The notes below the pieces were generated by a model. The model ran no database searches and had not been told where the DNA came from. It worked only from the letters and a program-made list of their open reading frames with translations. DNA of 64,000 nt, taken from Rufibacter tibetensis. Its GTDB lineage: Bacteria > Bacteroidota > Bacteroidia > Cytophagales > Hymenobacteraceae. The stretch spans positions 1,147,001 to 1,211,000 of the forward strand of contig NZ_CP012643.1 of assembly GCF_001310085.1 (NCBI RefSeq). The letters are read 5' to 3'. How positions within the stretch are numbered: position 1 is the stretch's first letter; every line of letters starts with the position of its first letter. The translations under genes were made by a program, and so were the position numbers. Below, one piece after another: positions 3,300-55,231 of this stretch.

Positions 3300-3555
3300 C
3301 ACTCCCCTCTTTATTCTTTTTTTCTTTGTTGGAGGGCTTCCTCTGAAGCTCAGAGCCTCTGCCTTTAAGCTTAGGCTCCCCTTTATTTTCCTGGGCTTTT
3401 ACCTTGGGTTCTGTTCTTTGGATCAGAGCCAAAAGCTGTTTCTAAGCTGGTTTCTACAAAATACCCTTGAAAGAAGCCGGGAATCCGCCTTTTCGCCATT
3501 CAATTCCTGATAAAAACTTTTTCCGTACTTCCATGGAATTGCAGAGATTAAGCCC
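3300..3555. other. Intergenic, no gene seen
   Basis: Pyrimidine-rich on the plus strand (runs of CTTT and CTCC). Contains no convincing open frame or strong hairpin; ends in the atpD promoter. Confidence 0.5.
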
Positions 3556-3563
3556 TATTTTTG
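3556..3563 (+). promoter_or_regulatory. -7 box of atpD promoter
   Basis: TATTTTTG matches TAnnTTTG, 48 bases before the atpD ATG. A TTG lies 14 bases upstream, closer than the usual 19, so the -33 element is uncertain. Confidence 0.6.
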
Positions 3564-3602
3564 CAGCCTGAAAGAAGTGAGTATCTATCTAAATAATTAT
3601 AA

Positions 3603-5117
<1,515 letters not shown>

Positions 5118-43895: not shown

Positions 43896-45401
43896 TTAGA
43901 ATACGCCTATGGCCTTCAATAATATCCGGAGGCTCCAGATGATCACCAAGGAGCCAACGGCAATGAACATGGTCTTCACCGGTAGTTTCCCGGCTAAACG
44001 CACGGCAATGGGAGCGGCAATCATCCCGCCTAAGACTAACCCCAGAATAATGTGCAGGTGACTTAAGCCTAACATGACAAAGAAGGTCAGGGAGCTAGCC
44101 AAAGCCACGAAAAACTCAGTTATGCTAACCGAACCAATGACAAACCGTGGGGTACGTCCTTTGGAAATAAGCGTACTGGTCACCAAAGGTCCCCAACCAC
44201 CGCCGCCAAAGGAGTCAAGGAAGCCTCCGGCCCCGGCCAGCCAGCCCGCTTTTTTAATCTTTTTGCGTTCTTTGTTCTTCCGGAAGGCAGCATAGATAAT
44301 CCGCCCACCTAAAATAAGGGTATAGGAAGCCAGTATAGGACGCACATAGTTTCCATACTCCTCTCCTACCACCGACAACAGATATGCGCCTAGAAATGCC
44401 CCAATCACCCCTGGAATGAGCAGAACTTTAAACAGCTTCTTGTTCACGTTGCCGTATTTATAGTGACTGTAACCAGAAGCCCCGCTGGAAAACACTTCAG
44501 CGGTATGGATGCTGCCGCTAATGGCTGGCAGGTTCACGCCTAATGACATCAAAATGGTAGTACAAGTCACCCCGTAGCCCATACCCAAGGCGCCGTCTAC
44601 TAACTGGGCCGCAAACCCTGCCAAAATCATCCAGTAAAACAAAGGTTCAATAGACAGGGCAAAGTCCTGGGCTTGCTCAAGGGCAAGCTGAACCGGAACG
44701 TACGAAGACAGCAGCATTCCCAGCACAGTGAACACCAGCGCGATCAATGCTCCAAAGGCCAGTTGTCTCCCCCAAGAATTTTTGGCGGTCTTCTTAGTCT
44801 TAGCCGGGGTGGTCGCCATTACTTTGGTAATGTCATTCAGCTGCGTCACTTTGGCTGCAAAATCGCCTTTGAGACGGTTTCTGATTTGCTGGAGGTTGTC
44901 CAGCACCTGGTCAATTTCTTCAGGAAGCGTTTCGTTGAAGGTTTCTTTCAGGCGCTTGGCCATGGTGGGCGATTTGCCGTTGGTAGAGATCGCGATCTTC
45001 AGGTTCCCCTTCCGCACTACTGAGCTAAGGTAGAAATCACAGAGATCTGGCGTGTCGGCTACGTTCACCAGTTTCCCCTGGCGCTTTGCTTCCAGACTGA
45101 TGGCATGGCTGGCTTCGCGGTCATTTACCGCTACAATCACTATGTCGGCTCCAGTTACATCTTCCGGACTGAAGGCCTTAGGTACTAACGAAATATTGTG
45201 ATGATCCTGGGCTAGCTGTAAAACGCCCTCGTTGAATTGAATGGCTACTACTCTAATGGTGGTGCGAGGCGAATTCTGCAATAAAGCCGTCAGCTTTTCC
45301 AACCCCACATTGCCTCCTCCTACCACCAAGACCGCCAGATGCTCCAGTTTCAAGAAAACCGGGAACAACTCATTTTGCTCTTTGATAACGGTGGTGGTCA
45401 T
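43896..45401 (-). CDS. Precorrin-2 dehydrogenase/ferrochelatase domain fused to TSUP permease
   Basis: 501 residues from ATG 45401 (MTTTVIKEQNELFPVFLKL). Residues ~10-205 are a CysG N-terminal/Met8-like domain: FPVFLKLEHLAVLVVGGGNVGLEKL with the NAD motif GGGNVG at 28-33, then DTPDLCDFYLSSVVRKGNLKIAISTNGKSP. Residues ~210-501 are a TSUP (TauE/SafE) permease with about 8 membrane segments: AGFAAQLVDGALGMGYGVT, then GGFLDSFGGGGWGPLVTSTLISKG. The first half should make siroheme from precorrin-2, as CobA lacks this activity; the second may move sulfate or sulfite. Last in the cys cluster but separated from cysI by 333 bases, so it may have its own promoter. A longer frame to 45500 is rejected. 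Confidence 0.9.
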   Translation of the reverse strand: MTTTVIKEQNELFPVFLKLEHLAVLVVGGGNVGLEKLTALLQNSPRTTIRVVAIQFNEGVLQLAQDHHNISLVPKAFSPEDVTGADIVIVAVNDREASHAISLEAKRQGKLVNVADTPDLCDFYLSSVVRKGNLKIAISTNGKSPTMAKRLKETFNETLPEEIDQVLDNLQQIRNRLKGDFAAKVTQLNDITKVMATTPAKTKKTAKNSWGRQLAFGALIALVFTVLGMLLSSYVPVQLALEQAQDFALSIEPLFYWMILAGFAAQLVDGALGMGYGVTCTTILMSLGVNLPAISGSIHTAEVFSSGASGYSHYKYGNVNKKLFKVLLIPGVIGAFLGAYLLSVVGEEYGNYVRPILASYTLILGGRIIYAAFRKNKERKKIKKAGWLAGAGGFLDSFGGGGWGPLVTSTLISKGRTPRFVIGSVSITEFFVALASSLTFFVMLGLSHLHIILGLVLGGMIAAPIAVRLAGKLPVKTMFIAVGSLVIIWSLRILLKAIGVF

Positions 45402-45734
45402 ATACGTTTCTTTCAATAATTTTTGAGGATTGTCAGGCGTGAAACCTAAGAGCAAGGGCTTAGGACAAAGTGCACATTTCGGATTTACCGAATACAGCAC
45501 CCAAAAGCATGGGGAGTGCTAACCTGAAAGAGTACTAAAATTAAGCAAAATATTCAAAAACAGATAATTAGCTAAAACTCTAATTATCCATCAAGTGGTG
45601 GTAGTAAGGAACATTAAAGGAATGGCTGCTTCTCAACAGAGGTTAATACCTACGTTCTTGCAATCCCAGGAAAGATGCGTTAAGGACCTGCTTTCACCAA
45701 ACAGACCCTAAACGCGTTCTTTACTATCTTAAGC
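45402..45734. other. Gap between cysI and cysG-TSUP
   Basis: AT-rich, without a convincing gene. Contains the palindrome at 45563-45588. No perfect -7 box was found on the minus strand. Confidence 0.4.
45563..45588. promoter_or_regulatory. AT-rich palindrome upstream of cysG-TSUP
   Basis: GATAATTAG-8 bases-CTAATTATC, a perfect 9-bp inverted repeat about 165 bases ahead of the start. Could be an operator for a dimeric regulator of sulfur genes or a weak hairpin. Confidence 0.4.
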
Positions 45735-47414
45735 TTAGTTTACAAAAGTGCGATAAGCGAAATCACCGAAGCGCTCACCAGCAGTTCTGTTCTGCTTGAA
45801 AGCCGCAAACACGGTATCCAGTTCCTGCAGGATTTCGGCTTCATTCAGGTTTTCTTTGTAGAGTTTGTTCAGACGGAATCCCTGCTCATCACCGCCCAGG
45901 TTCAGGTTATACCTACCCGGAGCCGTCCCTACAAACCCAATCTCTGACAGCACAGATCTACCGCAACCGTTCGGACAACCAGTCATTCTTATGATGATCT
46001 CCTCGTCCAACAATCCGTGGCTTTCCAGTACGCTGTCTATTTTGGTGATGAGGGTAGGCATGTAGCGCTGGGCCTCGGCTAAAGCCAGTGGACAGGTAGG
46101 AAGCGCCACGCAGGCAATCGCATTTTTACGAAGCAGCGAAGCAGCCTCAGTATGCGCGATTACGTTGTGTTTTACCAGAATCTGCTCAATTTCAGCTTTG
46201 TTTTCCGGCGTAATGTCGCTCAGGATCACGTTCTGGTTACAGGTAAACCGGAAGTTGGCTTTTCCGCTTTGCGCCACTTCCAGCATAGCCGTTTTCAGGG
46301 CCACATTGTCCAGATCAGTGATGCGTCCGTTTTCCACAAACACGGTGTAATGCAGCAGGCCATTGAAGCTCTGTGCCCAACCATAGTGGTCTACCCGGGT
46401 TTTCAATTCATAAGGCTGAGCCGCTTCAAGAGGGAAACCGGCGCGTTTCTCTACTTCCTGGCGGAACGCATCCAGCCCCATGTTGTCTACCGTGTACTTC
46501 AGACGAGCCAACTTGCGGTCAGCGCGGTTCCCGAAGTCACGTTGTACGGTCAATACTTCATAGACTGCCTTGAACAGCTTCTCGTCAGATTCCTCGGTGC
46601 TCACAAAGCCAATTTCAGACGCCAACCTTGGATAAGTTTCTTGGTTTCCGTGGGTGAAGGATAAGCCACCCCCAACGGCCAGGTTAAAGCCTTTCAGCTG
46701 GTCGTTCTCAATAATGGCAATCAACCCTAAGTCCTGGGCGAACACATCTGAGTCATTGTTAGGCGGAATTACCAGACCAATCTTGAACTTGCGTGGCAAG
46801 TAACGGTCCTGGTACAACGGGTCCTCTTCCTCTACCTTGTTATAAATCTTCTCCTCGTCCAACCATACGTCATAGTAAGACCGGGTCTTCGGAAGCAGGT
46901 ACTCACTGATTCTATCGGCGTACTGGTAGATTCTTTCGTGCAACGGTGATTCCAACGGGTTTGCGGAAGACACTACGTTCCGGTTCACATCGCCGCATGC
47001 AGCAATGGAATCTAAGCCAGCTAAGTGGAATGCCTTGATGGTAGGTTTGGTTTTAGACTTCACAATGCCGTGCAACTGCAAGGTCTGGCGTGTGGTGATC
47101 TTGATAACCCCCGTAGAATTCTCGCCTGCAATGTCATGCGTGGCAATGTACTGGGCAGACGTTAAGAAACCACCTGGCAAGCGCAGACGAATCATGAAGG
47201 TGTACAGGCGCTCCAGTTTCTTGGCGGCACGTTCTTCCCGGCGGTCACGGTCATCCTGCATGTACATGCCATGGAATTTCACCAGCGCCGTATCATCCTC
47301 ACGAATGGCTCCCGTGATTTCGTCTTTCAAGCTTTCCTTCAGCGTTCCGCGCAAGCCTTGGCTGATCTCTTTTATTTTCTCTATAGGAGATAAGTTCTTC
47401 TTCTCAGTTGACAT
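45735..47414 (-). CDS. cysI: Assimilatory sulfite reductase hemoprotein subunit
   Basis: 559 residues. Nitrite/sulfite reductase family: two ferredoxin-like half domains (MIRLRLPGGFLTSAQYIATHD; later SGKANFRFTCNQNVIL) each followed by a catalytic half. The siroheme/[4Fe-4S] cysteines are visible as CVALPTC (C-x5-C) near 435 and TGCPNGCGRS (C-x3-C) near 477. Reduces sulfite to sulfide with six electrons from the CysJ flavoprotein encoded upstream. The rarer NADPH-dependent type is inferred from the CysJ-like partner. Confidence 0.95.
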   Translation of the reverse strand: MSTEKKNLSPIEKIKEISQGLRGTLKESLKDEITGAIREDDTALVKFHGMYMQDDRDRREERAAKKLERLYTFMIRLRLPGGFLTSAQYIATHDIAGENSTGVIKITTRQTLQLHGIVKSKTKPTIKAFHLAGLDSIAACGDVNRNVVSSANPLESPLHERIYQYADRISEYLLPKTRSYYDVWLDEEKIYNKVEEEDPLYQDRYLPRKFKIGLVIPPNNDSDVFAQDLGLIAIIENDQLKGFNLAVGGGLSFTHGNQETYPRLASEIGFVSTEESDEKLFKAVYEVLTVQRDFGNRADRKLARLKYTVDNMGLDAFRQEVEKRAGFPLEAAQPYELKTRVDHYGWAQSFNGLLHYTVFVENGRITDLDNVALKTAMLEVAQSGKANFRFTCNQNVILSDITPENKAEIEQILVKHNVIAHTEAASLLRKNAIACVALPTCPLALAEAQRYMPTLITKIDSVLESHGLLDEEIIIRMTGCPNGCGRSVLSEIGFVGTAPGRYNLNLGGDEQGFRLNKLYKENLNEAEILQELDTVFAAFKQNRTAGERFGDFAYRTFVN

Positions 47415-47525
47415 GGTAACTGGTCTATGTGTGACAGGAATGCTCCTGTCACTGATTTTTTGATTTCTGTTCCTAGCATATTTTCTAGAAAACAGGTCCA
47501 GAACAGATATGTTTTTAGTGACTTT

Positions 47526-47556
47526 CGCTGGCGCGAGCCTTTGGCTCGCACCAGCG
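47526..47556. repeat. REP-like hairpin between cysJ and cysI
   Basis: CGCTGG-C-GCGAGCC / GGCTCGC-A-CCAGCG with a 3-base loop; 13 paired bases and one mismatch. High GC in a gene-free gap; no T-run follows, so a REP-type palindrome or mRNA-stability hairpin is more likely than a terminator. Confidence 0.7.
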
Positions 47557-47572
47557 TCAGCATGATTGCTGC

Positions 47573-49288
47573 TTAATACACGTCTTTCAGGTAACGGCCT
47601 TCTTCTTTCATTTGCTCCAGGTATACCGCAGCTTCTTCAGGGGAAGAGCCGGCACCTAAGCCAATGATCTGCAATAGGGTATTTTCTACGTCTACGCTCA
47701 TGGGTTCTTTGGCGCCGCACACGTACACGTATGCACCAGAAGTTAACCACTCGTAGAACTCAGTTGCGTTTTCCAGCATTTTGTGCTGCACATACACTTT
47801 CTCTTTCTGATCGCGGGAGAAAGCAGCGTTGAATTTGGTCAGGGTACCGGTCTCATACCAGTTCTGGATCTCCGTCTGGTACAGGAAGTCGGTGGCGAAG
47901 TGCTGGTCTCCGAAGAAAAGCCAGTTGCATCCATCGGCGCCAACGGCATCACGCTCCGCCAGGAAAGAACGGAAAGGTGCCACGCCTGTGCCCGGCCCAA
48001 TCATGATCACGTCTTTGTCAGCAGCCGGTAACTTGAACTGGTTGTTTTTGTGGATATAGAATTCCAACGGCTGGCCTTCTTTCTGCTCCGACAGGTAATC
48101 TGAGCAGTGACCGCACAGTAGTTCTTCGTTGATTCTGAACTCATCACGAGCTACCGTCACGTGGATTTCACCGGAGTGCGCTTCTAAGGAAGAAGAAATA
48201 GAATACAGTCTTGGCGCGATGGGCTCCAAAATTTGCAGCACCTCTTTGAACTGCTCAGCGTCTTTTACCGGGTAGATTCTCAAAAGATCCAGCAAATCAA
48301 TGCGGGTAGCCGGAATATCCTGCTCTACTACCTCAGCGTATTTTTTCACGACGCGCTCAGGCAGGAACGTGATGCTCAGTTTATCGTGCAGCAACTCGCG
48401 AACAGTTGATTCGCTGTTGCGGTGCGTTACTTTCTCATCTGATGAGATGCCAGTGATTTTTAAAATAGCTTCAATGGTAAACGGCCGGTTTTTAGGAACT
48501 ACGCCCAAAGCGTCACCGGGCTCGTACGCTAAATCTTCAGCTTCTATTTCAATGTGGTGCGTAAGTTTGTTTGACCCAATATCGTTCAGGACGATATTGG
48601 TCAGGATAGTACCGTTGTAGATTTTCTTGCCTGCTTTTTTAATCGGAGCAGGAGCAGCGGCTGGAGCCGAAGTTGGAGCGGACGTTTGGTTCAAAGACTG
48701 CAACACGCTCTGGAACCAGGCATTGGCTTCATCTTCGTAATCTACATCGCACTTCTGGATAGGCACTAGTGGGCTACCGCCTAAGCGTTGCAGCTGGGCA
48801 TCTACGTCTTCACCGGCTTTGCAGAACAGCGGGTACGCAGTATCGCCTAACGCCAGCACGCTGTACTTCAGTTTAGGCAGCTTCTTGTCGGTTTGGTGCA
48901 CGTAGTCGTAGAACTTCTGGGCACCTGCAGGCGGATCTCCCTCTCCCTGGGTGCTGATCACGGTTAAGAAGTATTCTTCTTTCTCCAGATCGTTCAGACG
49001 GTACTGGTCCAGGCTGACCACTTTGGCATTAATACCAGATTTCTTCGCTTTGCTTGCAAAATCAGTGGCTACGCGTTTAGAGTTACCCGTCTCTGTGCCA
49101 TAGGCAATGGTGATTTTACCTACCGAAGGTTTTGGAGTTTCGGCCACTGCGCCTGCAGCGGGAGCTGAGGCCGTTACGCCCTGTGATGAAATAAGCCCAG
49201 ACAAATAACCGCTCATCCAAATCAATTCATCTTTTGATGATTGATTCACAAGTTCTTGTAAGGCCTTTAATTTAGCTTCTGCTAACAT
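47573..49288 (-). CDS. cysJ: Sulfite reductase flavoprotein subunit (diflavin reductase)
   Basis: 571 residues. Flavodoxin domain from ~55 (ITIAYGTETGNSKRVATDF, STQGEGDPPAGAQKFYDYV), an alanine/proline linker near 205-220, then the FAD/connecting domain (EPGDALGVVPKNRP; RLYSISSS) and the NADP-binding domain (IGPGTGVAPFRSFLAERDA, YVCGAKEPMSVDV), ending in the aromatic tail DVY. Transfers electrons NADPH-FAD-FMN to the CysI siroheme. About 12 bases from the cobA stop, so one transcript. The first ~50 residues are an extra helical part. Confidence 0.94.
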   Translation of the reverse strand: MLAEAKLKALQELVNQSSKDELIWMSGYLSGLISSQGVTASAPAAGAVAETPKPSVGKITIAYGTETGNSKRVATDFASKAKKSGINAKVVSLDQYRLNDLEKEEYFLTVISTQGEGDPPAGAQKFYDYVHQTDKKLPKLKYSVLALGDTAYPLFCKAGEDVDAQLQRLGGSPLVPIQKCDVDYEDEANAWFQSVLQSLNQTSAPTSAPAAAPAPIKKAGKKIYNGTILTNIVLNDIGSNKLTHHIEIEAEDLAYEPGDALGVVPKNRPFTIEAILKITGISSDEKVTHRNSESTVRELLHDKLSITFLPERVVKKYAEVVEQDIPATRIDLLDLLRIYPVKDAEQFKEVLQILEPIAPRLYSISSSLEAHSGEIHVTVARDEFRINEELLCGHCSDYLSEQKEGQPLEFYIHKNNQFKLPAADKDVIMIGPGTGVAPFRSFLAERDAVGADGCNWLFFGDQHFATDFLYQTEIQNWYETGTLTKFNAAFSRDQKEKVYVQHKMLENATEFYEWLTSGAYVYVCGAKEPMSVDVENTLLQIIGLGAGSSPEEAAVYLEQMKEEGRYLKDVY

Positions 49289-49300
49289 AGCTTTGAAAAA

Positions 49301-50122
49301 TTATTGAAGTACCAAGCCCACCTGTTCAGCGACCGGCTTGAAGTAATGTTCTCTACTTGGGTTGTTGGTGAACCACTTAAACTCCTGGTGCAGGTTCACA
49401 ACTCTGCCTATGATCACGAGCGAAGGCGACACAAACGTCTTTCCGCCCAGGTTCTTTTCATAATCATACAGGCTGCTGGTTTGCACGTGCTGCAACGGCG
49501 TGGTTGCCTGTTCCACTACCGCCAGTTGTTTCTCTTCTGAAATGCCGTGGCGCGTCAGTTTCTCTACTACCTCTGCTAACCGTTCACTGGACATGTAAAA
49601 CACCAGGGTGTCTTCAGTCTGGGCCAGTTCCTGCCAATAGGCATCGGTCAGTTTGCTGTAGGTATAAAAAGTGAGAAAACGTACGGCGGTGGAATGCTGC
49701 CGGGCCGTCAGCGGAATGCCTGCGTAAGCAGCGGCACCTAAAGCGGCCGTAATGCCCGGTATAATTTCATATTCGATCTCATGCGCCACCAAGCTTTGCA
49801 GTTCATCCAGCACGTTGGAAAAGATAGACACATCGCCGCCTTTCAACCGGAGTACCTGCTTGCCCAAAAGCGCATATTCTACCAGTAATTCATTGATGGT
49901 GGCTTGCGGGGTAGTACCGTAGCTGCGGCATTGCTTGCCCACGTACACAATCTCCGCGGAAGGGGCCGCATAACTTTGCAGGATTTCTTCGCTCACCAAC
50001 CGGTCTACCAGAATAACTTCCGCCTTACGCAACGCTTTTACCGTCTTCACAGTGATCAGGTCAGGGTCACCGGGGCCGGCTCCTGCTATGATCACTTTTC
50101 CTTTTTGTGGCGCTGCTTGCAT
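49301..50122 (-). CDS. cobA: Uroporphyrinogen-III C-methyltransferase
   Basis: 273 residues from ATG 50122; a TTG at 50143 is the only longer option. SUMT signatures: VIIAGAGPGDPDLITVKTVKAL at the N terminus and YEIIPGITAALGAAAYAGIPLTAR in the middle; RLKGGDVSIF between them. Uses SAM to make precorrin-2, the precursor of siroheme for CysI. It lacks the CysG dehydrogenase/chelatase part, which is found in the TSUP fusion in the same cluster. A C-terminal stretch (~30 residues after GRVVNLH) resembles the short extension seen in Bacteroidota. Confidence 0.94.
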   Translation of the reverse strand: MQAAPQKGKVIIAGAGPGDPDLITVKTVKALRKAEVILVDRLVSEEILQSYAAPSAEIVYVGKQCRSYGTTPQATINELLVEYALLGKQVLRLKGGDVSIFSNVLDELQSLVAHEIEYEIIPGITAALGAAAYAGIPLTARQHSTAVRFLTFYTYSKLTDAYWQELAQTEDTLVFYMSSERLAEVVEKLTRHGISEEKQLAVVEQATTPLQHVQTSSLYDYEKNLGGKTFVSPSLVIIGRVVNLHQEFKWFTNNPSREHYFKPVAEQVGLVLQ

Positions 50123-50203
50123 GGGTTGTTTGTCTGTTCCCAAACCTCCGGTGAAGGAGGTTCGGGGTTTGATGTCGTATGTATTCTGTTTCTGGTCTGT
50201 TTC

Positions 50204-51481
50204 TTAGATTTCAGGCCAGAAAGGTTTTTCAGTGGCTTCAGTAGAAATCATGCAGGCCCCTACTGTTACGTTACTAGTTTCGTCAATCAAAATAGCTCCG
50301 CCGTTGGCTCTCAGTTTCTTATAAGAATCAAAGGCGATTGGTGAAGCTGTTTTAATGGTGGCCTTCACTACATCGTTAAGACCCGCCGAAACCGGAGAAA
50401 GTTCTTTTTCCAATGAATTCACGTTGAGTTTGTACTCCAGTTCTTTCACCACGCAGCGTACGGTGCGGCTGTTGATTTGCAGAAGGTACCGGTTGCGCGG
50501 TATCAAAGGCGTGTTGCTCATCCAGCACAGCACCACTTCAAACTCCTGGGCCACCTGCACCGGGGCATCCTGCTTCACAAGAATATCGCCGCGGCTAATG
50601 TCCACGTCGTCTTTCAAGTGAAGTACGGCACTTTGCGGCGCGAAGGCTTCTTCTACTTCTTTACCGCCTACTTCCACAGCTGAAATGGTGCTTTCTACGC
50701 CCGAGGGCTGCACCACCACTTTATCTCCCTTGCGGTAAATGCCACTGATGATTTTTCCGGCGTAACCACGGTAGTCAGGCAATTCCTCGGTCTGAGGACG
50801 GATCACGTACTGTACCGGGAAGCGGCCTTCGGTGAGGTTGATGTCTTCGTGCACCTCTACGGTCTCCAGCAAGCCTAAAAGGGACTCACCCTCGTACCAC
50901 GGCATGGTTTCGGCTTTCTCCACAATGTTGTCGCCGTTGAGCGCACTGATGGGAATGTAAGACACATTTTTCAGGCCCAGGGATTTAGCCACCTGTGAGT
51001 AGTCAATCACGATGTTGTTGTAGACCTCTTCTGAGTACTTCACCAAGTCCATCTTGTTGATGGCTACCACTACGTGCGGCAGATTCAGCAAAGACACAAT
51101 GATGGAGTGACGGCGGGTTTGCTCTACTACGCCATGACGGGCATCAATCAGGATAATGGCCAGGTCTGAGTTAGAGGCACCAGTCACCATGTTGCGGGTG
51201 TACTGGATGTGGCCCGGCGTATCTGCGATGATGAACTTGCGCTTAGGCGTAGAGAAGTATTTATAGGCCACATCAATTGTGATGCCCTGCTCCCGCTCTG
51301 CGCGTAAACCGTCGGTTAGTAACGCTAAGTCTACCTGACCTTCTTCGCGGTTCTTGGTGCTCCGCTCAATGGCTTCCAGTTGGTCTACCATGATGGATTT
51401 GCTGTCATACAACAAACGCCCAATCAAAGTACTTTTGCCATCGTCTACGCTACCGGCGGTTAAAAATCTTAGAATATCCAT
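50204..51481 (-). CDS. cysN: Sulfate adenylyltransferase subunit 1 (GTPase)
   Basis: 425 residues. EF-Tu-like GTPase: G1 GSVDDGKST at ~9-17, G3 DTPGHIQYTRNM at ~89-93, G4 NKMDLVKY near 145, followed by beta-barrel domains II and III. With CysD it makes APS from sulfate and ATP, driven by GTP hydrolysis. It has no C-terminal APS kinase (CysC) fusion, consistent with a pathway that reduces APS directly. Nearly 200 bases separate it from cysD; the gap holds repeat-like DNA. Confidence 0.96.
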   Translation of the reverse strand: MDILRFLTAGSVDDGKSTLIGRLLYDSKSIMVDQLEAIERSTKNREEGQVDLALLTDGLRAEREQGITIDVAYKYFSTPKRKFIIADTPGHIQYTRNMVTGASNSDLAIILIDARHGVVEQTRRHSIIVSLLNLPHVVVAINKMDLVKYSEEVYNNIVIDYSQVAKSLGLKNVSYIPISALNGDNIVEKAETMPWYEGESLLGLLETVEVHEDINLTEGRFPVQYVIRPQTEELPDYRGYAGKIISGIYRKGDKVVVQPSGVESTISAVEVGGKEVEEAFAPQSAVLHLKDDVDISRGDILVKQDAPVQVAQEFEVVLCWMSNTPLIPRNRYLLQINSRTVRCVVKELEYKLNVNSLEKELSPVSAGLNDVVKATIKTASPIAFDSYKKLRANGGAILIDETSNVTVGACMISTEATEKPFWPEI

Positions 51482-51489
51482 TCTTATGT

Positions 51490-51504
51490 GAGTTCTGAGT
51501 CTTG
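51490..51504. repeat. Copy of the GAGTTCTGAGTCTTG word
   Basis: The 15-base word also occurs as the core of the atpD-atpC palindrome (14 of 15 bases identical). Lies just before cysN in transcript order. Confidence 0.5.
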
Positions 51505-51589
51505 GGCTTTGCCTCTGTTTTAGTACTGCTTTAAAAAAATAAGCTTAAAACAAGGGGCTCTTTCACCAAAGTTCTCTTTCTATATCTTC

Positions 51590-51604
51590 ATCGGCTACGC
51601 CGAT
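51590..51604. repeat. Short GC-rich palindrome in cysD-cysN gap
   Basis: ATCGGC-tac-GCCGAT, flanked on both sides by TTCAT/ATTCATT; a second, weaker GGC-gga-GCC follows at about 51630. Looks like a degenerate REP-type element. Confidence 0.5.
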
Positions 51605-51680
51605 ATTCATTGTTATTTCAATTACCTGAGGCGGAGCCGAATGATTCTCCCATTCACTCCGTCACTCATTCACTTATTGC

Positions 51681-52589
51681 TTAGAAGTATCCGTTTTTCT
51701 TGCGGTCTTCCATAGCGGCTTCAGAAACGCGGTCGTCAATACGGGTCTGGCCACGCTCGCTGGTGTTGGTTGCGATGATCTCGTTGATGATGTCATCTAA
51801 GGTAGAAGCACTGGACTCAACAGCAGCAGTACAGGTCATGTCACCTACAGTGCGGTAACGAACCACTTTGCGGGTCACCACGTCATGGTGATCCAGCGTT
51901 ACAAATTCGTTGGTAGCAACCAAGCGGCCATCAAACTCTAACACCTCGCGCTCATGGGCAAAGTAGATAGATGGCAGCTCAATTTTCTCACGACGGATGT
52001 AGTTCCAAATGTCCAGCTCAGTCCAGTTACTGATCGGGAACACGCGCACGTTTTCGCCTTTGTTGATTTTGCCGTTGTAGGTGTTCCACAACTCAGGGCG
52101 CTGCAACTTAGGATCCCAGGAACCGAACTCATCACGCACTGAGAAGATACGCTCTTTGGCACGGGCTTTCTCTTCGTCCCGGCGGGCACCACCAATACAA
52201 GCGTCAAACTCGAACTCTTCAATCGTATCTAGTAAGGTGTAGGTCTGCAACCCGTTACGGCTAGGCAATTTGCCTTTCTGCTCAGTAAGGCCTTTGGCTT
52301 TGATGGTATCTTCCACGTTACGCACAATCAGCTTTTCACCGATTTTGTCGGCCAGGTAGTCTCTGAAGTCTAATGCTTCTTGGAAGTTGTGGCCGGTGTC
52401 AATGTGCACCAATGGGAAAGGGAACTTGCCAGGCCGGAAGGCTTTCAACGCCAGGTGCACCAACACAATAGAGTCTTTTCCGCCGGAAAACAAAAGGGCC
52501 GGGCGCTCAAACTGACCTGCTACTTCTCTGAAAATATGAATCGCTTCTGATTCCAGCTGATCCAGGTAATCTAATTTATATGAACTCAT
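51681..52589 (-). CDS. cysD: Sulfate adenylyltransferase subunit 2
   Basis: 302 residues. PP-loop ATP-pyrophosphatase fold: LLFSGGKDSIVLVHL near residue 33-42, HIDTGHNFQEALDFRD, then GARRDEEKARAKERIFS and FPISNWTELDIWNYI; the C-terminal GDMTCTAAVES segment is normal for CysD. Adenylates sulfate as a heterodimer with CysN. Immediately downstream of cysH (20 bases) in the same transcript. Confidence 0.97.
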   Translation of the reverse strand: MSSYKLDYLDQLESEAIHIFREVAGQFERPALLFSGGKDSIVLVHLALKAFRPGKFPFPLVHIDTGHNFQEALDFRDYLADKIGEKLIVRNVEDTIKAKGLTEQKGKLPSRNGLQTYTLLDTIEEFEFDACIGGARRDEEKARAKERIFSVRDEFGSWDPKLQRPELWNTYNGKINKGENVRVFPISNWTELDIWNYIRREKIELPSIYFAHEREVLEFDGRLVATNEFVTLDHHDVVTRKVVRYRTVGDMTCTAAVESSASTLDDIINEIIATNTSERGQTRIDDRVSEAAMEDRKKNGYF

Positions 52590-52609
52590 AGGTACTATGT
52601 CTATTCTTT

Positions 52610-53359
52610 CTACTTGGCCAGTTCCGGAGCAACCGGAGCCGGCGATTCAGATACGTGTAAGCCACACTCTTTTTTGCTGGCGTCTTCCCACCACCAACGT
52701 CCTGCCCGGAAATCTTCGCCCGGCTGGATGGCACGGGTACAAGGGGCGCAGCCTATTGAGATGAAGCCTTTGTCGTGCAGTTTGTTGTAAGGGATGTTGT
52801 GCTGCTTGATGAAAGCCATCACTTCCTCAGTGGTCCAGTACAGCAGCGGGTGGAATTTAATGAGCTGGTTTCCCTCGTCCCACTCAAACTTAGGCAAGTC
52901 ACTGCGGCCCTGAGAATGCTCGGCCCGCAGACCGGTAATCCAGATGGCGTTACCTTTCAAAGCGCGCTTCAACGGCTCCACTTTTCTGATGTGGCAGCAG
53001 TCTTTGCGGTTCTGGGTAGACTCATAAAAAGAGTTGGGACCGGTAGAAGACACAAATTCCTCCAGTTGCTCATTGTTAGGATAATAAGGCTTGATACGGG
53101 TGTTGTACGCCTCATTGGTCCGGCTCCATACGGAGTAAGTCTCAGGGAAAAGACGGCCGGTATCTAACGTGAAGATGCTGATGGGGAATTGGTTTTCCAG
53201 AATCAGGTGAGAGATCACCTGGTCTTCAAAGCTGAAGCTGGAAGAGAACGTCACCTCATTAGGGTAACGGTTCACCAGCAGCGCAAACGTCTGGTCTATG
53301 GTTAAGCCTTCTGTCTCTTGTATAAGTTGAGACACATGCTCTTGTGAAGAAGAGGCCAT
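52610..53359 (-). CDS. cysH: APS reductase, iron-sulfur type (CysH)
   Basis: 249 residues from ATG 53359; a frame to 53416 is open but adds an unrelated leader. PAPS/APS reductase domain: VTFSSSFSFEDQVI, TLDTGRLFPETY, TGLRAEHSQGRSDL. Four cysteines that bind the [4Fe-4S] cluster are present, CC at 121-122 and CAPC at 204/207, together with the catalytic cysteine in KKECGLHV (232). The cluster pair is the mark of enzymes that reduce APS rather than PAPS, and no APS kinase is in the cluster. First gene of the cys operon; expression is probably set by the upstream attenuator. Confidence 0.95.
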   Translation of the reverse strand: MASSSQEHVSQLIQETEGLTIDQTFALLVNRYPNEVTFSSSFSFEDQVISHLILENQFPISIFTLDTGRLFPETYSVWSRTNEAYNTRIKPYYPNNEQLEEFVSSTGPNSFYESTQNRKDCCHIRKVEPLKRALKGNAIWITGLRAEHSQGRSDLPKFEWDEGNQLIKFHPLLYWTTEEVMAFIKQHNIPYNKLHDKGFISIGCAPCTRAIQPGEDFRAGRWWWEDASKKECGLHVSESPAPVAPELAK

Positions 53360-53414
53360 GGCAAGAAAATACGTTGTAAGAAAAAGAAATTGACTATTGG
53401 GGTGTCGTATAGGC

Positions 53415-53452
53415 AATAAAAATTTGTTGATTGCTAAGGATTAGCAACAACA
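53415..53452 (-). terminator. Attenuator hairpin overlapping the cysteine leader peptide
   Basis: On the minus strand TGTTGTTGCTAA (53452-53441) pairs with TTAGCAA-T-CAACA (53437-53425): 12 bp, one bulged T, 3-base loop TCC. AATTTTTATT follows at once. The 5' arm is formed by the last three Cys codons and the stop codon of the leader peptide, so a ribosome on those codons would prevent the hairpin. Confidence 0.75.
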
Positions 53453-53482
53453 GCAGCAGGAGCTGCAACAGCAGAAGCGCAT
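53441..53482 (-). CDS. Cysteine-rich leader peptide of the cys operon
   Basis: ATG at 53482, 13 codons, stop TAA: MRFCCCSSCCCCC. Eight of thirteen residues are Cys, written with both TGC and TGT, so it is not a plain triplet repeat. It lies between a consensus promoter (TTG-19 bases-TATCTTTG) and cysH, about 50 bases into the transcript, and overlaps a hairpin with a T-run. This is the layout of a ribosome-mediated attenuator: when Cys-tRNA is scarce the ribosome stalls on the Cys codons, prevents the terminator and lets cysH-cysD-cysN and the rest be made. Polycysteine leaders that act as attenuators are known in mycobacteria; a Bacteroidota case would be notable. Function is inferred. Confidence 0.75.
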   Translation of the reverse strand: MRFCCCSSCCCCC

Positions 53483-53540
53483 TCGCTTTATGTAAGATGA
53501 ATAGACCATGTAGTCTTTATCTGGCTGTTTAAAGATGACG

Positions 53541-53570
53541 CAAAGATAGGGACCGAATTTTACAAATCAA
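53541..53570 (-). promoter_or_regulatory. Promoter of the cys operon
   Basis: Minus strand TTG, exactly 19 bases, then TATCTTTG (-7 box at 53541-53548): full Bacteroidota consensus. The transcript should begin near 53534, leaving about 175 bases before cysH, which contain the leader peptide and attenuator. Confidence 0.75.
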
Positions 53571-53890
53571 GTTTTCCTATCAATTTAGTAGAGTTTAACA
53601 ATTAAAAATCAGCAGGTTTCCCTGCTTTCTATTATGCTTCTACCAATAAAAAATCAAAAGCATTATCGTAATCTCAATGACTGAATTCCTTTTTTGGGGT
53701 ATTTTCCTAAAAGGAGTGTTAAAACTTATGCTTCTGATAGTTAAACCAACCCAACACATTGAAAAGTTTCCGGAGAACCATTTTTATATGTACCTACAAA
53801 TAAAAAGGCAAAAGGCTGGAAATCTTACTTTCAGAACAGCAGACATTACCCTGCTTTGGCTACCTTCACGACCGTATATCTTCCGTTTTC
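53571..53890. other. Intergenic, no gene seen
   Basis: AT-rich region upstream of the LRR-kinase gene. An 81-codon plus-strand frame (53677-53922) overlaps the start of the kinase gene in another frame and has no recognisable features. Confidence 0.4.
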
Positions 53891-55231
53891 ATGCATACCT
53901 TAGAACAATTACAAGCCGGTGAACTGGCAGGCGCTACCAGAGTAAAACTCTCCTGCAACCTTACTGAGGTTCCCTCTGAGATATTTGACCTGGCCGAAAC
54001 CCTGGAAATTCTGGACCTATCCGGAAACCACCTGACCAGCTTACCCGATGCCTTTACCCGGTTACAAAACCTGCGCATTGCGTTTTTCTCTGACAACGAC
54101 TTCACGGTGTTTCCCGAGGTGCTGGGCAAACTTCCCCGCCTGGAGATGATTGGGTTCAAAGCTTGTCAGATTGGGCACATTGCCGAGGATGCCATTCCGC
54201 ACACTACCCGCTGGCTTATCTTAACCAATAACCAGATTGCCGAATTACCGGCTTCTATTGGCAAATGTACCCGCATGCAAAAGTTGATGCTGGCCGGAAA
54301 TAAGTTGAAAGCCCTTCCTCCGGAACTGGCTTCCTGCCAAAACCTGGAGCTTTTCAGAATATCAGCGAACCAAATTACTCACCTGCCAGATTGGTTGTTC
54401 TCGCTTCCGCGCCTCTCCTGGCTGGCTATCTCGGGAAACCCCTGCAACCCGCCGGCTTCTACTGCCACCGACTTACCAGAAATTTCCTGGCAAGATTTGG
54501 TGCTGGAGGAGCAATTGGGCGAAGGTGCCTCAGGCATCATTTCACGGGCACATTGGCAAAACCGGGCAAATTCTACCCATCAGGTGGCGGTGAAAGTTTT
54601 CAAAGGCGAAGTGACCAGCGATGGCTTGCCCGAAGACGAGATGCAGGCTTGTATGCGGGCCGGGGCACACCCCAACCTGGTGCAGGTACTAGGAAAATTA
54701 GGCCAGCATCCGGCCCAGAAACAAGGCTTGGTGTTTGAGTTAATACCCGCCGGCTACCGCAACCTAGGAGGCTCGCCCAGCTTTGAATCCTGCACCCGCG
54801 ATGTCTACGCTGAAGACACGGTCTTCACTCTGGAAGAAGCCATCAGCATTTCTTTAGGCGTTGCCTCCGCAACCGCTCACCTGCATGCCCGTGGCATTTC
54901 GCATGGCGACCTTTATGCGCACAATACCTTAGTAGATGAAACCGGCCATCCGCTCTTCGGGGACTTTGGTGCCGCAACAGTATATGACCAGGCCAATACG
55001 ACCCTAGCCACTGCTTTGGAACGCCTGGAAGTTCGGGCCTTCGGGTGCCTGCTGGAAGATTTGCTGGATCACCTCACTCCCGAAGCTATGGCTCAGGAAC
55101 GGGCGCAAAGGCTTCTTCAGTTAAAGCAGGTTTGTATGCAACCTGAGGTTCAGAACCGGCCTGCTTTTTCGTTCATTGTGGAGCAGATAGAATCTATCTC
55201 TAAACAGGTAATGCCAAGCAGCTTAAACTAA
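53891..55231 (+). CDS. Leucine-rich repeat protein with C-terminal protein kinase domain
   Basis: 446 residues. Residues ~15-185 hold about seven LRRs (LEILDLSGNHLTSLPDAF, RWLILTNNQIAELPASIG, KLMLAGNKLKALPPEL, LFRISANQITHLPDWL). Residues ~203-440 are a Hanks-type Ser/Thr kinase: glycine loop LGEGASG (209-215), ATP lysine VAVKVFKG (K235), catalytic loop HGDLYAHN (D340, N345; HGD where most have HRD), and DFG at 358-360. The activation loop is short and the C lobe compact. Cytoplasmic, no membrane segment. LRR-kinase fusions occur sporadically in bacteria; target and function unknown. Single gene. Confidence 0.88.
   Translation: MHTLEQLQAGELAGATRVKLSCNLTEVPSEIFDLAETLEILDLSGNHLTSLPDAFTRLQNLRIAFFSDNDFTVFPEVLGKLPRLEMIGFKACQIGHIAEDAIPHTTRWLILTNNQIAELPASIGKCTRMQKLMLAGNKLKALPPELASCQNLELFRISANQITHLPDWLFSLPRLSWLAISGNPCNPPASTATDLPEISWQDLVLEEQLGEGASGIISRAHWQNRANSTHQVAVKVFKGEVTSDGLPEDEMQACMRAGAHPNLVQVLGKLGQHPAQKQGLVFELIPAGYRNLGGSPSFESCTRDVYAEDTVFTLEEAISISLGVASATAHLHARGISHGDLYAHNTLVDETGHPLFGDFGAATVYDQANTTLATALERLEVRAFGCLLEDLLDHLTPEAMAQERAQRLLQLKQVCMQPEVQNRPAFSFIVEQIESISKQVMPSSLN

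Follow-up and report, generated by a model that had tools for sequence, protein, structure and literature searches.

What controls the sulfate assimilation genes that begin with cysH in Rufibacter tibetensis, and does a short frame crowded with cysteine codons just ahead of cysH take part in this control? The window, that is the whole stretch of DNA analysed here, comprises 64,000 nucleotides of contig NZ_CP012643.1 (positions 1,147,001 to 1,211,000); coordinates are window coordinates, and the features described in it lie on its minus strand. The answer that we propose, with a probability of roughly 80%, is that the cysH-cysD-cysN-sulfite reductase operon is under the control of a leader peptide that senses cysteine.

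A run of cysteine codons in front of cysH

The leader open reading frame MVYSSYIKRMRFCCCSSCCCCC (53441..53509) has 22 codons and is the longest frame starting with ATG, with its in-frame ATG at 53509-53507 and its TAA stop at 53443-53441; a gap of 81 nt separates this stop from the ATG of cysH (53359). Sequence and codon comparison within the genus single out CCCSSCCCCC, eight cysteines in ten residues, as the putative regulatory codons (53444..53473). The cysteine density amounts to six in eight residues, a value not attained in any of 100 dinucleotide shuffles of this upstream DNA, and the predicted fold of the leader RNA has a z of -3.5. Further upstream lies a candidate promoter (53541..53570) composed of TTG at 53570-53568, a 19 nt spacer and TATCTTTG at 53548-53541, which is mostly preserved in the alignment of 14 Rufibacter genomes and which we take to be of the Bacteroidota type. 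Going by this predicted promoter, transcription would start just after 53541, with a 5' untranslated region (UTR) of about 30 nt. Directly upstream of the promoter stands an imperfect palindrome, CTACTAAATTGATAG (53577-53591), which by eye is largely conserved in the Rufibacter relatives and may be a regulator site.

An initial annotation of this DNA had described the promoter motif TTG-N19-TATCTTTG, the cysteine frame and a hairpin of 12 pairs followed by AATTTTTATT, and all of these are present in the sequence as described. It had read the frame as 13 codons long; the frame and its distance from cysH stand, and the start has to be moved. The internal ATG at 53480-53482, from which the shorter version begins, was rejected as the likeliest start because 14/14 Rufibacter loci have another, conserved ATG 27 nt further upstream, and the leader frame most likely has 22 codons, as judged from this conservation.

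The search for CysH covered 98 genomes and gave a match in 67; sixteen of the genomes, including the one studied here, belong to Rufibacter, and all leader counts within the genus refer to the 14 of them with a CysH match, the two without such a match being left out. The initial annotation had made its proposal depend on the conservation of the cysteine frame in relatives, and the 22-codon frame together with its ATG is indeed retained at all 14 CysH loci. The N-terminal half of the peptide is partly conserved, with substitutions Y/F, S/T/P, Y/H, I/T and K/E/M, F, L or R takes the place of the last cysteine in 4/14 genomes, and one cysteine has become Gly in one of the 14. The mixture of TGC and TGT pointed out in the annotation is real, and it is also nearly frozen: in leader codons 12-15 and 19-21, where the residue is invariant (one Phe and six Cys), the third base varies in 1/7, compared with 51/67 invariant two-fold codons of cysH in the same genomes (Fisher p = 0.002). 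The leader is therefore under a constraint at the RNA level in addition to that on the peptide.

Pfam matches back the assignment of the downstream genes to the sulfate pathway. The gene for CysH (52610..53359; PF01507, matching 3'-phosphoadenosine 5'-phosphosulfate reductase) is followed by cysD (51681..52589; a match to the same family, the name being derived from position and size), cysN (50204..51481; GTP_EFTU, a CysN-like GTPase named from its position), a gene for a tetrapyrrole methylase, probably of sirohaem synthesis (49301..50143), a cysJ-like gene for the sulfite reductase flavoprotein (47573..49288), a cysI-like gene for the sulfite reductase hemoprotein (NIR_SIR; 45735..47414) and a gene in which a sirohaem-synthesis domain is fused to TauE (43896..45500). 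The last of these is probably the end of the operon.

Cysteine frames before cysH in other Bacteroidota

Several families have putative cysteine leaders ahead of cysH, and what follows the leader takes at least two different layouts. Of 140 loci, 74 were scored over the 420 nt preceding CysH, the others having a same-strand frame that ends close upstream (65 loci) or lying at a contig end (one locus); at least five of the 74 are duplicate copies by their coordinates (L031, L111, L112, L113 and L134), and the test started from ATG first, so that frames starting with GTG could be missed. At least four cysteines within eight residues occur in 33/74 loci (31/69 without the duplicate copies and 17/55 outside Rufibacter), as compared with 0/74 among the reverse complements and 0.41 expected from shuffles. 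At least five within eight are found in 25 loci, the corresponding control values being 0 and 0.03. Examples come from metagenome-assembled genomes (MAGs) of Chitinophagaceae (..SCNSCCCCC in L036, ..CCNSKCCCC in L037 and ..CCCCNACCNC in L043) and from L127, L129 and L130 (family f24). GTAGAC stands shortly before the leader ATG in several loci of the Chitinophagales type. At 40 loci where other genes precede cysH, inspection by eye upstream of the first gene of the run, without shuffle control, revealed a Met/Cys frame in seven loci from Pedobacter/Mucilaginibacter, to which L099 is added from a separate inspection, and no acceptable Met/Cys frame before the first gene in the rest of the 40. 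Minus-strand frames of the type ..SYSCCC.. in Flavobacterium loci were rejected as leaders, since in L108, the one that was read, such a frame is an antisense overlap with the 3' end of cysN. The same locus has a small frame upstream of its sulfate operon (3481-3891), which may encode an Rrf2-type regulator, going by a resemblance.

One of the two layouts resembles a classical attenuator. Flavobacterium humi, F. limnosediminis and F. urocaniciphilum appear by eye to carry two tandem Met/Cys leaders before cysH, each with a hairpin and a T tract (around 5600-6000 in L092 and L107, and around 5715-5990 in L079), and a single leader of this kind is seen by eye in one Saprospiraceae MAG and in L035. 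Together with eight Pedobacter/Mucilaginibacter loci these five make up a classical set, chosen for a visible terminator in the five and for a Met/Cys frame in the eight, in which a hairpin plus U-run occurs in 13/13 loci where 1.5 are expected; a test for perfect stems caught 8/13, and a folding criterion and shuffles were added later. With one leader considered per locus, an antiterminator duplex stands out against mononucleotide shuffles (p <= 0.04) in 6/13, namely in all five of the Flavobacterium, Saprospiraceae and L035 loci and in only one of the eight from Pedobacter/Mucilaginibacter, where support for it is weak. The other layout is represented by 42 hand-picked leaders, six of them from Rufibacter: a hairpin with a U-run is present in 14 of these against 10.1 expected, no clear excess, and at -10 kcal/mol or better in six against 3.4. 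A P3-like hairpin (P3 is described below) was not found across 42 hand-picked leaders without classical terminator (mean z -0.8).

Two explanations that do without sensing through codons can be weighed at this point. The first regards the poly-Cys frame as a by-product of chance or composition, a triplet repeat or the antisense of Gln-rich DNA. It gains something from the other two places in the genome with the pattern CCCxxCCC (L142 and L143), which on reading resemble the antisense of Gln-rich coding DNA and were rejected as leaders (the pattern also missed a frame before metY, described below, that has only CCCC), and is barely credible in view of the conservation, position and stop placement of the frame, its recurrence before cysH and metY, and the failure of any of the 74 reverse complements to reach four cysteines in eight. 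The second holds that the peptide acts as a protein, binding a metal or serving in redox chemistry through its cysteines. Eight cysteines in ten residues and the partly conserved N-terminal half in Rufibacter would fit such a role, which is nevertheless very improbable: beyond the genus the cysH leaders have the Cys run in common and not the rest of the peptide, the third bases are frozen, and within Rufibacter one cysteine can be Gly and the last one varies.

Leader RNA structure and the proposed switching of the operon

Alignment and folds, the latter counted by eye, yield three predicted helices. In P1 the strand AACAGCCAGA of the 5' UTR (53520..53529) pairs with Cys codons 1-2 (53467-53475); it is paired in 97.6% of alignment cells, has no two-sided changes and appears in 9/14 single-sequence folds. 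P2 is a hairpin within the Cys run, GCAGC-UCCU-GCUGC (53453..53466), which is invariant, with 100% of cells paired, and is found in 14/14 folds. Being nearly invariant, P1 and P2 say little about structure. P3 (53425..53452) is formed by the final three Cys codons with the stop and the bases after it: in the window TGT TGT TGC TAA pairs with TTAGCAA-T-CAACA, giving 12 pairs with one bulged base at about -11 kcal/mol, followed by AATTTTTATT with a run of five T two bases further on. P3 is paired in 90.9% of cells, three of its pairs have changes on both sides, and the covariation score is equalled by 2/500 shuffles; 13/14 single-sequence folds contain the full outline of P3 and one (L013) the inner part only. 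The structure as drawn pairs in 95.6% of the cells of alignment A3, as opposed to 24-61% after sliding. Most Rufibacter leaders also show a second hairpin beyond P3 (TGCC..GGCA), which is weak in the window, and a long-range helix that RNAalifold drew between the two start-codon regions was set aside as probably trivial.

On the reading that we prefer, ribosomes would translate the 22-codon leader of a transcript begun just after the promoter. Scarcity of Cys-tRNA would stall them in the run of eight Cys codons, the stalled ribosome would keep the leader RNA (P1, P2 and P3) open, and expression of the operon would go up. With plentiful cysteine, ribosomes would reach the stop and leave, and the leader would refold into an OFF form. 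What the comparisons show is the frame, its conservation, the constraint on the RNA, the return of such frames ahead of cysH elsewhere in Bacteroidota and a second Cys leader at metY of this genome; translation, stalling and the direction of the response are inferred.

How the OFF form might act is where the initial annotation and our results part. The annotation had taken P3 plus AATTTTTATT for an intrinsic terminator whose 5' arm is covered when a ribosome stalls at the late Cys codons. The 12 pairs and the T run in the window, the mostly conserved pairing of P3 within Rufibacter and the expectation, from codon spacing and the ribosome footprint, that pausing on most of the Cys codons would bring a ribosome onto the P3 arm all speak for this idea. 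However, P3 plus a U-run by the folding criterion is present in just 2/14 Rufibacter genomes, a T run of at least four within 14 nt of P3 in 3/14, and the U-tract is common to at most two other species; a simple terminator scan of 45000-54000 gave 13 sites against 9.8 expected by shuffling, flagged P2 and did not list P3. Moreover, the stop codon of the leader is part of the P3 5' arm, so that a ribosome reading to the end would mask P3 just as a stalled one would, which disfavours P3 as a classical terminator. A conserved intrinsic terminator at P3 in Rufibacter is thus not supported by these comparisons, and we consider this explanation clearly unlikely. What survives of the attenuator originally proposed is a leader with Cys codons before a sulfate operon, seen throughout the genus and in 33/74 Bacteroidota loci; the intrinsic terminator (2-3/14) and the masking of its arm by the stalled ribosome are not supported.

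Control at the level of translation, in which a stalled ribosome would refold the leader and thereby open cysH to translation, as described for poly-Cys leaders of mycobacteria, is rather unlikely in our view, though less so than the intrinsic terminator. The mycobacterial leaders share the layout, with a Cys run close to the stop and without a conserved terminator, according to the accessible part of PMC1262725 (Seliverstov 2005), and translation attenuation of cysteine genes in Mycobacterium smegmatis is reported second hand in the available portion of PMC13236596; the stretch ahead of cysH, by contrast, is AU-rich and little structured in most predicted folds. For the cysteine-sensing leader itself, the OFF step that we favour is a premature end of transcription, factor-dependent in the manner of Rho or otherwise non-canonical, rather than intrinsic termination at P3, because the U-tract is not conserved and the bases that follow the stop are rich in C and poor in G. 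Over the 60 nt beyond the stop, C is more frequent than G in 37/42 non-classical leaders, compared with 26/42 for a segment lying further upstream. Alternatively, the OFF step may act on cysH translation or on mRNA stability.

Several results weigh against the reading as a whole. Below four cysteines in eight residues are 41 of the 74 scored loci, including Algoriphagus, Chryseobacterium and several Flavobacterium, some of the 41 being loci with a SAM-I riboswitch (see below) whose GTG-started Cys frame escaped the ATG-first test. Shuffling partners within columns already pairs 94.5% of alignment cells, close to the value observed; three two-sided pairs in P3 are reached by 50/500 shuffles; P1 and P2 lack two-sided covariation in the Rufibacter alignment; and an antitermination fold is not established for Rufibacter. 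The excess of C over G, finally, is compatible with Rho and no proof of it, weak evidence obtained with a crude control.

SAM-I riboswitches with cysteine leaders and known systems

In relatives, the Cys frame before cysH can be combined with an S-adenosylmethionine (SAM) riboswitch. Rfam SAM-I matches were obtained in 11/20 relative cysH loci and then in 3/11 more, and all 14 loci hold a Cys-rich frame (at least three Cys in eight residues) between aptamer and cysH, which begins with GTG or ATG 7-12 nt past the aptamer in 13/14 and 103 nt past it in L042; L121 is an additional case by its coordinates. The composite was seen in Hymenobacteraceae and some Chitinophagales. The cysH leader of the window has no SAM-I (RF00162) by Rfam search, and over 52000-54500 the two matches obtained up to E = 1 are far below gathering scores, neither being the Bacteroid-trp RNA (RF01692).

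SAM-I is present in 59 of 60 genomes of the family. A Cys frame begins 7-12 nt after the aptamer in 14 of 30 loci fetched, followed by cysH (2), a metY-like gene (6), a gene for an ATP-grasp-type protein (2), an amino acid permease (2; Pfam run on one), a TonB-dependent receptor (1) or an M14 peptidase (1); the metY-like name is a tentative one, Pfam having been run on one of the six (PF01053). The two ATP-grasp cases are L150, without a Pfam match, and L173, with a RimK match. The other 16 loci are without such a Cys frame, and in ten of them a terminator appears by eye right after the aptamer. The window's own genome has two SAM-I matches, one before a metH-like frame and one before a leader MENQ..DICCCCR followed by metY (G000:C1:5094813-5095447; L185, L174). 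Frames ending in CCCR, CCCCR or CCCCCL lie between SAM-I and metY in 10/10 Rufibacter regions read, which comprise the own genome and nine others chosen from the listed matches by aptamer length. By eye, a stretch UCCC..U-rich..AGGGCCUGACGC..GCAGG between Cys leader and metY recurs in most of these ten (L176-L185). A class-wide sample contained SAM-I in 141/198 genomes, and the composite was absent from the 30 best-scoring of its SAM-I loci, so it is not general to SAM-I in Bacteroidota.

These arrangements could constitute a two-input sulfur switch, in which the SAM-I aptamer, its 3' P1 strand lying 7-12 nt before the leader start, would gate translation of the Cys leader, a gating that we infer from the spacing alone. 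To be on, the operon would then require low levels of both SAM and cysteine; the cysH leader of the window would be a SAM-less version, and the full composite stands before metY in the same genome. For us the arguments for and against such a switch are evenly balanced. In the literature searched, with subscription papers mostly outside its coverage, neither a Cys leader ahead of sulfate genes in Bacteroidota nor a composite of SAM-I and Cys leader was found described. The available parts of PMC2965389, PMC4833913 and PMC6429828 contain nothing on either. As far as the sources could be seen, PMC9723704 gives clues that amino-acid operons of F. psychrophilum are preceded by attenuators with leader peptides (its section on the matter does not name cysteine), PMC7366714 mentions leader-like small open reading frames in Bacteroides thetaiotaomicron, and PMC2864571 lists Bacteroid-trp as cis-regulatory in Bacteroidetes. 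The composite is the most novel part of our findings, and through it a single RNA could sense two products of the pathway. Regulation of sulfate assimilation in Bacteroidota is little described as far as this literature goes, and the leader offers a concrete candidate regulator with testable codons.

Among known systems, the SAM-I riboswitch immediately precedes the Cys frame in relatives, is present at the own metY, and is absent from the cysH leader in the window. The frame uORFC-8-2 before cysS in Rhodobacterales, for which ribosome-mediated attenuation is proposed (PMC8632094, as far as accessible), also has Cys codons in a leader frame; it differs in that its Cys codons number two, a U-run is always present and a tRNA synthetase gene follows, and in belonging to the Alphaproteobacteria. 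With attenuators of the Trp/His/Leu type the leader shares codons for the end product of the pathway in the leader frame. The Flavobacterium and Saprospiraceae relatives also show the terminator and antiterminator of that type, whereas in Rufibacter the terminator lacks conservation and the 3' hairpin includes the stop. Poly-Cys leaders of mycobacteria are alike in being short frames upstream of cys genes, with the Cys run at the stop and no conserved terminator. They are reportedly leaderless, as the title of Canestrari 2020 is said to put it, and in this they would differ from the case described here, with its predicted 5' UTR and structured RNA (P1-P3); they also belong to a different phylum, and as far as comparison by eye goes the peptide is unrelated. 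For the mycobacterial cys leaders, Rho was proposed as one possibility and called rather weak, according to the part of PMC1262725 that could be seen. The 42 non-classical leaders, those from Rufibacter included, resemble the mycobacterial cys leaders.
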